Origin: Acidobacteriota bacterium
GTDB taxonomy: Bacteria; Acidobacteriota; Thermoanaerobaculia; Gp7-AA8
NCBI GenBank assembly: GCA_016184115.1
Contig: JACPDH010000082.1
Coordinates: 1-43,905, forward strand
Length of the DNA stretch: 43,905 nt
Direction of reading: 5' to 3'
Made by a program: the position numbers and the translations under genes. This document shows positions 4,831-12,912 of this stretch, in pieces. Under the pieces are notes generated by a model, which was not told the origin of the DNA, did not search any database, and saw only the letters and a list, made by a program, of their open reading frames with translations. Within the stretch, counting starts at the first letter, position 1. Each line of letters opens with the position of its first letter.

Positions 4831-4938
4831 GGATTCGGACAGGAGACGACTTCGCTGGAACGACGATCGCCTCGGTGCTTCGTCTAACCCGCTCGATTCG
4901 CGTTTCAATCCAGCGCGTGCCACGGATCGAGACGGCGG

Positions 4939-5123
4939 CTAGCCCGCATTTCTCACAGCGCTTCGTCGCGAGCCGGCCGAGAGCGGCCTGGATGCGAGGC
5001 GCGCGGCGATTTCGCGACGACGGCATAGTTGACACTATGTCGAGGAGCGAAATCGTCGCGCAACGAAGCAGGCAGACCGCTATCGGCTGTCGCAGCGGAA
5101 GGGCTGTGAGAAATGCGGGCTAG
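4939..5123. repeat. Dispersed palindromic element, long copy with perfect 21-bp inverted ends
   Basis: Bases 4939-4959 and 5103-5123 are perfect inverted repeats of 21 bp, beginning and ending in CTAG. Inside, a second palindrome is formed by GCGATTTCGCGACGA and its near complement around a CATAGTtgaCACTATG centre. The outer 43-45 bp on each side match the short copy at 2145-2232 at about 88-89%. The element has the build of a non-autonomous mobile palindrome (MITE or REPIN). CTAG at both ends could be a target duplication or part of the ends. It fills the divergent gap between the ExoD-like gene and the HutF-like gene. Confidence 0.88.
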
Positions 5124-5234
5124 AAGCCTGCGTGGTGGAACGGCTTCAGCACCACGAAGGCCACTTGTTCCGGATCCTCCGCGAGTTTATCGTCAGGGAA
5201 AGACCGGAACGTCGGACTGTGTGCGGGGACGTCA

Positions 5235-6548
5235 ATGCCTGCGTCGAAGTCGGTGATCGAAGCCGCGTGGACCTGGACGGGCGAGCAGTTTCAGCGCGAC
5301 GTCCAGATCGTCGTCGACCGCCATGGCCGGATCGAGAAACTGATCCCCGCGGGACGTCCCGCCACACGCCGTCTCCCGGGCCAGGCGCTCCTTCCCGGTT
5401 TCGTGAACGCGCGTTCTCTCAGTTTCCAGCGCGGCATGCGTGGTCGCGGCGAAGGGTTTCCAGTCGGCGTCGGGAATCTCTGGACCTGGCGCGAGGCGAT
5501 GTACGACCTCGTGCTCGAGCTCGACTCCACATCGCTCTATGCCCTCGCTTCCCGCGCGTTCCGCGAGATGCGCGCCGCGGGAATCACGACGGTTGGCGAG
5601 GTGCAGCTGCTTCATCACACGTTGGGCGAGGTCGACTACGCGTACGACGAGGTGATCCTGCGCGCGGCCGCGACCTCGGGGATCCGCATCGCCCTTCTCG
5701 AGGCGTACGTGCACGACGGCGGCTACGGACTCCCTCCCAACGACGCCCAGAAGCGCTTTGCGTCTCCCTCGCGGGGCCAGTTCTGGAGGCAAGTCGATGC
5801 ACTCGAGGCGGCGCGCGATCCGCGCACGCAGTCGATCGGTGTCGCCGCGTACGGCCTGCGAACCGTCCCTCTCGTCGAGCTCGCCGAGCTCCATGCGGAG
5901 ACGAGGCGCCGGGATCTCGTGTTCCACGTCCCAGCCGAAGAACAGCGCCACGACGTGGATCAGTGCGTCGCGCACTACGGCAAGCGACCACTCGAGCTGC
6001 TCCTGGACACGATCAAGATCGACCGCCGGGTAACGGTCGCTCACGCGACGCACGCCACGCCCGACGATCTCGCACGCTTCTTCGCGGCGGGAGGCAACGT
6101 CTGCCTCGCGCCCCTCACCGAGCACAACCTCGGCGATGGCCTCATTCACACCGAGAGCATCCGCGGCGTCTCGGAACATCTCGCGCTCGGCACAGCGGGC
6201 AACGGGAGAATCTCGATGCTCGAGGAGATGCGCGCGCTCGAGTACGCGCATCGCGTGCGCGCCGAATCGCGCGGGATCTTCCGCGACGAGTCGGGGCGCG
6301 TCTCGAAGACACTCCTCGAGATCGCCACGCGCGGTGGCGCTCGCGCGCTCGGTCTCGAGACGGGACGAATCTACCCGGGCTACTGGGCGGATTTCACCGC
6401 GATCGACCTCACGCACCCTTCGATCGAAGGCTGTGACGAGCAGTCGATTCTCGATGCCGTCGTGTTAGGCGCAGGAGACGAGATCATTACCGCGACCTGC
6501 GTCGGCGGAAAATGGACGGAGCACCGTGAGGCACGGCTTCAGACTTGA
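5235..6548 (+). CDS. HutF-like amidohydrolase, probable pseudoenzyme (metal ligands lost)
   Basis: The 437-residue product aligns along its whole length with formimidoylglutamate deiminase (HutF), a zinc amidohydrolase of histidine breakdown. Conserved blocks include LWTWREAMYDL, HHTLGEVDYAY, LLLDTIKIDRR, NLGDGLI and EEMRALEYAHRVR. The four positions that bind zinc in HutF are all changed: the HxH of the first strand is R60-S-L62, the HIH...EQ histidine is P233, and the metal Asp of the GSDSH block is A321. Tyr206 replaces a substrate histidine. Q65, R209, E236 and H270, which match substrate or catalytic residues, remain. The frame is intact, so it is likely kept for a non-catalytic or altered role. 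No other hut gene is nearby. The ATG at 5235 has only a weak GCGGGG upstream. Confidence 0.85.
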   Translation: MPASKSVIEAAWTWTGEQFQRDVQIVVDRHGRIEKLIPAGRPATRRLPGQALLPGFVNARSLSFQRGMRGRGEGFPVGVGNLWTWREAMYDLVLELDSTSLYALASRAFREMRAAGITTVGEVQLLHHTLGEVDYAYDEVILRAAATSGIRIALLEAYVHDGGYGLPPNDAQKRFASPSRGQFWRQVDALEAARDPRTQSIGVAAYGLRTVPLVELAELHAETRRRDLVFHVPAEEQRHDVDQCVAHYGKRPLELLLDTIKIDRRVTVAHATHATPDDLARFFAAGGNVCLAPLTEHNLGDGLIHTESIRGVSEHLALGTAGNGRISMLEEMRALEYAHRVRAESRGIFRDESGRVSKTLLEIATRGGARALGLETGRIYPGYWADFTAIDLTHPSIEGCDEQSILDAVVLGAGDEIITATCVGGKWTEHREARLQT

Positions 6549-10374: not shown

Positions 10375-12912
10375 TCAGCGCTGCACCCACTTCGCCAGCG
10401 CGACTCTCAAGTCTTCCTGTCGCGTGGGCTTCGCGAGGTAGTCGTCCATTCCAGCCGCAAGGCACTTCTCCCGATCGCCGTCGAGTGCATGTGCCGTCAT
10501 CGCGATGATGCGAATCCGGCGCGCTGCCCCTTCGAGCCTCCGGAGCTGAATCGTCGCTTCGTATCCGTCCATCTCCGGCATCTGACAATCCATCAGAATC
10601 ACAGGGTAGTGACGCTCCTGGATCGCGGTTAGGACTTGTGCGCCATTCTCGACGATGTCGACCTCGTAACCGAGCTTGACCAGCTGGCTCTTCGTGAGCT
10701 TCTGATTGAGCGTGTTGTCTTCCGCGAGCAGGATGCGTGTCGTGCCCTCCGCAACCGGCATCGGCAATGCCGAAGGTAGCGGCTCGGGCGCCGCGGGAAG
10801 CGCTGACGGAGCTGCTACCTCGCGCGGCTTCTCGCGTTTCGGGCGAAGCTCCTTCGCCATGACGATCGTCAGCGCATCGAGCAGCTCGGCCTGCTCGACC
10901 GGCTTCTGAATGTACGCGGCGATCCCGACCTCGCGCAACAGGTCGTCGTCGACCTGCTCTCCGAGCGAAATCATCGACAGCAGCGAGACCGTCGCGATCG
11001 ACGGCTCACTTCTGATCGCCTCGGCAAGCGCCAGTCCATGCATCGCCGGCATGTGCAGGTCGAAGATCGCAATACGGAACGGGTCGCCCACCGCCGCCTC
11101 GGCGCGCATCATCTCCAGCGCGTCGACCGGCGACGTCGCCGTGTCGCAGCGCATCCGCAGCGTTGACTCGAGATAGTGAACGACGATCTTCCGGCTCGTC
11201 TCGCTCTGGTCGAGCACGAGCACGCGAGTTCCGGTGAAATCGAACCGCTCAGCATCGATGTGCCTCGTCTCGAACGGAATCGAGAACCAGAACGTCGAGC
11301 CCTCGAGCACCTTGCTGTCGACACCCATCACCCCGCCCATCAGCTCGACGAGCTGCTTCGACGTCGAGAGGCCAAGCCCGACTCCTCCATACTTGCGCGT
11401 CATCGAGCCGTCGGCCTGAGTGAATGAGTCGAATATCCTGCCGAGCGAGCCCTCCGGAATCCCCATCCCCGAGTCAGTCACTTCGAAACGGACGATCTGA
11501 TGCGTGTCGGTCTCGCGCTCGAGTCGCACGCTCACGAAAACCGAACCATGCTCGGTGAACTTCACCGCGTTGTTCAGGAGATTGGTGAGCACCTGGCGCA
11601 CCGCACTCACGTCGCCGTAGACGACCGCGGGGAGATTCTCGTCGAGCGTCATCGTCATCTGGAGCTGCTTCTCCGACGCCGCGACCTTCATCACTTCGAC
11701 GATCCACGTGACGGTGTTGATCAGGTCGAAGTCGCTCAGGGTGCGCGTGAGCCTTCCCGCCTCGAGACGCGAGACCTGGAGGATGTTGTTGATGATCGAC
11801 AGGAGCTCGTCCGCGCTCGACAACGCCGTTCGCGCGAACTCCGTCTGCTCTTCGTCGAGCTTCGAGTCGAGCAGCAGCTGCAGCATGCCGACGATCGCGT
11901 TCATTGGCGTTCGGATCTCGTGGCTGACGTTCGTCAGGAACTGACTCTTCAGGCGGGACGACTCGAGTGCCGCGTCGCGTGCCTTGCCGAGCTCGACCTC
12001 GAACTGCTTACGCTCGCTCACATCGCGGAAGATGACGCGGACGAGAGACGTGCGTCCCTCGAGGACTCGCGGGCTCAATTTCCCTTCCACGGTTAGGCGT
12101 CTGCCGCGATTCGTCAGGAAGACCGTCTCGATCGTCTCGGCCCGCCCCGTCGCGACGACGCGGCGGAACACCTTGACGAACTCCGGCCTCATGTCGGGGT
12201 TCACGATGTCGGAGAGCGAGACGCGCGGCACCTCTTCGCGCGAGTATTCGAATGCCTCCAGCCACGCACGGTTGACATGGATCAGCCGCCCGTCGGTCGA
12301 GATCGTGAGGATGAAGTCGTCGACGCTCTCGAACAGGTCCTGCAGCCGCTCCTGAGTCTCCGCGAGCGCATGCTTGACGTCCGACGTCTCGCGCGCGCGA
12401 CGCTCGAGTTCGCTGACGTCGCGCCGCATCACGAGCGCGCCCACGACTTCCCTCGCGAGTGACTCGAGGATTCGCTTCTGCGTAGGGTTGAGCGCGCTGC
12501 GAGGCACGCTGTCGAAGACCGCGAGCGTGCCGAGCACGTGCCCTTCGGCCGTGATCAGCGGCGCGCCAGCGTAGAACCTGACATGGGGCGGTCCGGTGAC
12601 GAGCGGGTGGCGCGCGTAGTCGGGATCGCGCAACGTGTCGGCGATCATCACTGTGCTGAACAACTGAATCGCGCGCTCACAGAAGCTGAGGCTCCGCGGC
12701 ATCGATTCGATCGCCCAGCCATGCGTCGCCTTGAACCACTGCCGTTCCGCGTCGACGAATCCAATCATCGCAACCGGAGCGCTGCATGAAAGCGCCGCGA
12801 TCTTCACGATCTCGTCGAGCGTCTCGTCAGCCTCCAGCTCGAGGACGCCCCAGCTCATCACCGCATCGAGACGATCCTTCTCCACGGACGGGTCGGGGCC
12901 ATTCGTATTCAT
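10375..12912 (-). CDS. Hybrid sensor histidine kinase with GAF, PAS and two receiver domains
   Basis: The 845-residue product has no membrane helix. In order it has a GAF domain (about 15-165), a PAS domain (about 190-310), a dimerisation domain with the phospho-accepting His331 in NVSHEIRTPMN, an ATPase domain (about 430-555, with NLLNNAVKFT, DSGMGI and GVGLGLS), a first receiver with Asp618 in IFDLHMP, and a second receiver with Asp775 in ILMDCQMPEMDG. The first receiver has LDQ in place of the usual acidic pair. It is a soluble sensor that probably passes phosphate to its own receivers; no output protein or Hpt is nearby. The ATG at 12912 has a TACAAT box 9 nt upstream. It lies 56 bp downstream of the CorA-like gene on the same strand. 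Confidence 0.92.
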   Translation of the reverse strand: MNTNGPDPSVEKDRLDAVMSWGVLELEADETLDEIVKIAALSCSAPVAMIGFVDAERQWFKATHGWAIESMPRSLSFCERAIQLFSTVMIADTLRDPDYARHPLVTGPPHVRFYAGAPLITAEGHVLGTLAVFDSVPRSALNPTQKRILESLAREVVGALVMRRDVSELERRARETSDVKHALAETQERLQDLFESVDDFILTISTDGRLIHVNRAWLEAFEYSREEVPRVSLSDIVNPDMRPEFVKVFRRVVATGRAETIETVFLTNRGRRLTVEGKLSPRVLEGRTSLVRVIFRDVSERKQFEVELGKARDAALESSRLKSQFLTNVSHEIRTPMNAIVGMLQLLLDSKLDEEQTEFARTALSSADELLSIINNILQVSRLEAGRLTRTLSDFDLINTVTWIVEVMKVAASEKQLQMTMTLDENLPAVVYGDVSAVRQVLTNLLNNAVKFTEHGSVFVSVRLERETDTHQIVRFEVTDSGMGIPEGSLGRIFDSFTQADGSMTRKYGGVGLGLSTSKQLVELMGGVMGVDSKVLEGSTFWFSIPFETRHIDAERFDFTGTRVLVLDQSETSRKIVVHYLESTLRMRCDTATSPVDALEMMRAEAAVGDPFRIAIFDLHMPAMHGLALAEAIRSEPSIATVSLLSMISLGEQVDDDLLREVGIAAYIQKPVEQAELLDALTIVMAKELRPKREKPREVAAPSALPAAPEPLPSALPMPVAEGTTRILLAEDNTLNQKLTKSQLVKLGYEVDIVENGAQVLTAIQERHYPVILMDCQMPEMDGYEATIQLRRLEGAARRIRIIAMTAHALDGDREKCLAAGMDDYLAKPTRQEDLRVALAKWVQR

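Follow-up and report, generated by a model that had tools for sequence, protein, structure and literature searches.

A HutF-like protein without zinc ligands in an Acidobacteriota genome, a candidate pseudoenzyme

A stretch of 43,905 nucleotides from an Acidobacteriota bacterium, which we refer to as the window, encodes a 437-residue protein that is homologous end to end with formimidoylglutamate deiminase (HutF) but has none of the zinc ligands of that enzyme. As judged from alignments with its homologues, this protein, which we term pseudo-HutF, is shown to have lost every protein zinc ligand along with much of the substrate pocket, and the remainder of the protein has changed in the manner of a working HutF. 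On balance, we lean toward pseudo-HutF being a pseudoenzyme that arose from HutF and has been kept for a nonhydrolytic role. We have high confidence that zinc would be absent from the old site, and zinc-dependent deimination of N-formimidoyl-L-glutamate by pseudo-HutF appears very unlikely. Retention of a nonhydrolytic function, which we infer with moderate confidence, is the least certain part of this explanation.

Zinc site, substrate pocket, and predicted fold

The reading frame of pseudo-HutF is intact, confirming the 437-codon frame described in an earlier note made from the DNA alone; the positions of the gene and of its altered sites are given in Table 1. The end-to-end alignment with HutF claimed in the earlier note was also borne out, with NCBIfam HutF models matching the protein over almost its whole length (best E, 4.6e-100) and Pseudomonas aeruginosa HutF (3mdu) aligning with residues 16 to 429 (E, 1.6e-59). 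Pseudo-HutF nonetheless scored below the curated equivalog cutoffs of both NF006681 (335.5 versus 362 bits) and TIGR02022 (328.8 versus 413 bits). A control homologue (L034) cleared the NF006681 cutoff with 406 bits. Scans for promoters and terminators found nothing.

Table 1. Positions of features in the window
Feature	Position	Strand	Evidence
Palindromic interspersed repeat, 31-nt terminal inverted repeats (90% complementary), intergenic, upstream of gene	4934..5128	.	Sequence and genome comparisons
HutF-like amidohydrolase-fold protein without zinc ligands (pseudo-HutF), 437 aa	5235..6548	+	ORF, profile, alignment, and predicted-fold evidence
Codons 60-62 (R-S-L), end of barrel strand 1; HxH zinc-pair site	5412..5420	+	Alignment, codon comparison
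Codons 123-125 (V-Q-L), end of strand 2; family F-H-Y; Y125 corresponds to P. aeruginosa Tyr121	5601..5609	+	Alignment
Codon 159 (V), end of strand 3; family-invariant Tyr	5709..5711	+	Alignment of homologues
Codons 206-207 (Y-G), end of strand 4; family H-S (P. aeruginosa His206)	5850..5855	+	Alignment
Codon 233 (P), end of strand 5; third zinc His position	5931..5933	+	Alignment, codon comparison
Codon 292 (A), end of strand 7; family Cys	6108..6110	+	Alignment of homologues
Codon 321 (A), end of strand 8; zinc Asp position	6195..6197	+	Alignment, codon comparison

We take the zinc ligands of Pseudomonas HutF to be His56, His58, His232, and Asp320. In the alignment with 3mdu, NLHSHAFQR at the first site lies opposite NARSLSFQR, which puts R60 and L62 at His56 and His58; HIHIAEQ lies opposite HVPAEEQ, which puts P233 at His232; and GSDSH lies opposite GTAGN, which puts A321 at Asp320. 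HMMER, MAFFT, and tblastn all gave this placement, the one reported in the earlier note, so that nothing is left of the His-x-His, His, and Asp set. Misalignment at P233 was ruled out by the agreement of HMMER and MAFFT. The counterparts of Gln61, Arg209, Glu235, and His269 are retained as Q65, R209, E236, and H270, again as the note had read them, and R86 and E296 are kept as well.

Across 113 homologues, 53 columns were at least 97% conserved, and pseudo-HutF breaks 12 of these: the four zinc-ligand columns (H60R, H62L, H233P, and D321A) and eight further ones (F82L, F123V, Y125L, Y159V, H206Y, S207G, E240D, and C292A). Other homologues, scored by leaving one out, break 0 to 3 near-invariant columns (mean, 0.42), and the number broken in pseudo-HutF is far beyond chance. 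Ten of the 12 losses lie at the C-terminal mouths of barrel strands, including those at the counterparts of Tyr121 (Y125L) and His206 (H206Y) of P. aeruginosa HutF. With the mouth defined post hoc from the strands of the model, 10 of 18 mouth columns were lost versus 2 of the 35 remaining columns (Fisher p, 1e-4). Most of the replacements at the mouth have either a hydrophobic or a small side chain (L62, V123, L125, V159, G207, P233, A292, and A321). Thus, the selective loss of the metal site proposed in the earlier note holds in that all four ligands were replaced, but the loss extends to much of the substrate pocket.

An AlphaFold2 model built with 54 relatives reached a pLDDT of 95.4 and a pTM of 0.94, a confidence partly borrowed from an alignment made up of canonical enzymes, and the model is silent on bound metal. 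Its best solved match was 3mdu (Z, 52.0; rmsd, 1.9; 429 residues aligned; 30% identity), and Foldseek matched it with 4rdv, also P. aeruginosa HutF, at an E of 2.3e-39. These comparisons suggest that pseudo-HutF folds as a (beta/alpha)8 barrel with a small beta domain, as HutF does. Pseudo-HutF therefore resembles HutF in full-length homology, predicted fold, and several active-site residues, and it combines lost catalytic residues with constraint and a (predicted) fold that are retained, as is characteristic of a pseudoenzyme.

Homologues, phylogeny, and locus

Homologues came from genomes related to that of the window, from the class and the phylum to which it belongs, and from a GTDB contig collection. 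In pairwise alignments with 109 homologues, 108 covered the HxH pair and every one of these had both His residues; the Asp was present in 106 of 106, and the third His was present in 105 of 109, with Ala or a gap in the other four. In the MAFFT alignment, the third-His column was His in 113 of 113 homologues, and none of these 113 is without the zinc ligands. A search for relatives sharing Arg, Leu, Pro, and Ala at the four positions found none in 61 relatives, 149 genomes of the class, 396 genomes of the phylum, a GTDB contig scan, and plasmids, and the best identity of any relative to pseudo-HutF in these collections was 52%. The earlier note had suggested looking for a clade with this shared form; instead, all relatives from the searched collections have the canonical site, and among them the zinc-less form is known from one genome only. 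In the open literature, we found no paper describing the structure of HutF or a pseudoenzyme derived from it.

Our tree placed pseudo-HutF inside a clade of 54 rows from Acidobacteriota, Gemmatimonadota, and Phycisphaerae with 99% SH-aLRT support. When descent together with the HutF copies of two same-family genomes (L005 and L007) was imposed, the constrained tree was not rejected, and its likelihood was above that of the free search (p-AU, 0.695). Plain vertical descent within the family is possible, and the careful tree fixed no position within the clade. The members of this clade (L005, L006, L034, and others) are the closest sequences to pseudo-HutF, at 44 to 52% identity. Unlike pseudo-HutF, they keep a complete site, and most of their genes follow directly on a gene for an ArgE-like M20 protein, as pseudo-HutF does not. 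Of 56 clade loci, 44 have the M20 gene immediately upstream of HutF in the same orientation, with a gap of -3 to 153 bases; among the remaining 12, 3 extend less than 1 kb upstream of HutF and 9 extend further with no M20 match. The clade M20 protein that we tested scored above an acetylornithine deacetylase cutoff (318 versus 297.7), and in this clade the enzyme may act after HutF on N-formylglutamate, as an N-formylglutamate deformylase. One genome (G002) has both the M20-HutF pair and a monofunctional FtcD (368 versus 221 bits), indicating that HutF is not always the sole exit of the histidine pathway in the family.

Upstream of pseudo-HutF, the window has no ArgE-like M20 gene, and no M20 partner was matched anywhere in its genome at an E of 1e-20. 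Both flanking genes are on the opposite strand, and no neighboring gene suggested itself as a candidate partner. Bin contamination was ruled out, with the flanking genes matching a genome of the same genus (G001) at 73 to 80% nucleotide identity. No copy of pseudo-HutF was detected in G001, whose contigs break at the locus with conserved flanks on both sides. One of these contigs (C421, near base 11900; L168) ends just past the small downstream gene, in about 75 bases that differ from the window at that place. Genomes of the same genus and the same family (G001 and G005) contain stretches similar to the repeat upstream of pseudo-HutF, and a second contig of the window's genome (L208) carries a 16-mer identical to one at the end of the repeat; the repeat resembles a small noncoding mobile repeat.

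The window's genome has hutU and hutI above their cutoffs and no HutG above its cutoff. FTCD had no match in this genome, an absence that is only suggestive in a draft that is 97% complete. Most relatives carry FTCD, including G001, which has a full-length FTCD protein. The flanks of the G001 FtcD locus were sought in the window's genome and not found, so that loss and an assembly gap are indistinguishable. The histidine pathway in the window's genome (G000) thus appears to lack a known last step, unless the draft assembly has a gap.

Constraint, decay, and alternative explanations

Within its own clade, pseudo-HutF has lost 14 of 82 columns conserved at 95% or more, versus 0 to 6 in other members. 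Its losses in the lower classes were 9 of 39 columns at 85 to 95% conservation, 14 of 50 at 70 to 85%, and 36 of 83 at 50 to 70%, an ordinary rate over the 50 to 95% range, as in tips of similar length. Because the excess is confined to the most conserved class, the change is aimed at the pocket, and decay fits badly since unselective decay should raise losses in all conservation classes. Relative to the codon usual in the family, three of the replacements require three base changes (Y125L, Y159V, and C292A) and three others require two (F123V, H233P, and D321A), and the GC3 of the gene (0.81) is similar to that of neighboring genes. Neutral drift was also simulated, starting from the gene of an intact relative, with 2,000 runs per distance; the runs modeled substitutions, and adding indels would only strengthen the result. 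At 0.05 substitutions per site, 15% of copies were stop-free, and almost none were by 0.2; in 0 of 2,000 runs at any distance were all four ligands lost with the frame still open. Together, the pocket-aimed losses, intact frame, GC3, multistep codon changes, and drift simulation suggest that neutral decay is a poor fit. The earlier note's reading of retention rather than decay is supported to this extent, with an intact frame and ordinary constraint outside the pocket. The end branch of pseudo-HutF (0.78, or 1.15 in a smaller tree) is somewhat long versus the median of all rows (0.34) and its nearest clade mates (about 0.4 to 0.65), so constraint on the protein may possibly be partly relaxed. 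We consider it unlikely, though worth weighing, that a dispensable deiminase is being lost and that the frame is open only because decay is recent or slow. Such a loss would agree with the missing M20 operon partner, the lack of a detectable copy in G001 (where contigs break at the locus), and the end branch, but the losses are not spread over the protein, multistep codon changes need time, GC3 has been maintained, and drift lasting long enough to strip all the ligands would be expected to have disrupted the frame.

With E236 and H270 in place, there is still room for new chemistry, in which the barrel would be an enzyme for another reaction, working either without metal, through E236 and H270 as its acid-base pair, or with a metal bound by other residues. 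Q65, E296, R86, and R209 are also kept while the metal ligands are gone, and constraint is normal over the remainder of the protein. Against this, a new conserved set of His, Asp, or Cys residues is not definable from one sequence, the residues now at the mouth offer mostly small or hydrophobic side chains, and we know of no metal-free catalysts with the amidohydrolase fold in the HutF subgroup; we grant new chemistry a modest chance, somewhat above that of ongoing loss. Its specific form as a zinc-independent reaction that keeps E236, H270, and the carboxylate arginines, with R60 possibly supplying the lost positive charge, is doubtful, a shade more so than decay. A continuing formimidoylglutamate deiminase of unorthodox mechanism is highly improbable. 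It might be needed in a genome that has hutU and hutI but in which FtcD, HutG, and an M20 partner were not found, and R86, R209, Q65, E236, and H270 are kept; however, the protein lacks all four zinc ligands as well as the residues corresponding to Tyr121 and His206, and the draft may simply miss an FtcD that the same-genus genome has in full length.

Possible roles of pseudo-HutF

A pseudoenzyme kept for a nonhydrolytic role remains the explanation that we favor. In one such role, pseudo-HutF would bind a carboxylate-bearing ligand through R86, R209, and Q65 and serve as a sensor or a sink. Alternatively, pseudo-HutF could serve another enzyme as a structural or regulatory partner, by analogy with Pseudomonas ATCase, whose activity requires an inactive dihydroorotase (pDHO) (PMC7053772). 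Fungal Ura2 has a pDHO that lost its zinc ligands and substrate residues (PMC7053772), and these proteins resemble pseudo-HutF as barrels of the amidohydrolase superfamily in which chemistry was lost and the fold kept. They differ in belonging to another family and in having a known partner (ATCase) and a widespread shared form, whereas pseudo-HutF has no known partner and was seen once. Several observations weigh against the pseudoenzyme explanation: no second genome with the same form speaks for a shared selected state; pure binding has no obvious need for E236, H270, and Q65 of the old catalytic apparatus; the end branch is compatible with partly relaxed constraint; no neighboring gene points to a partner; and the fold model owes part of its confidence to canonical enzymes.

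We caution against an annotation of pseudo-HutF as formimidoylglutamate deiminase, which would complete on paper a histidine pathway that the genome may not have. Pseudoenzymes show how a fold can outlive its chemistry, and pseudo-HutF would provide a clean test of whether an amidohydrolase barrel can be kept for binding, partnership, or metal-free catalysis.
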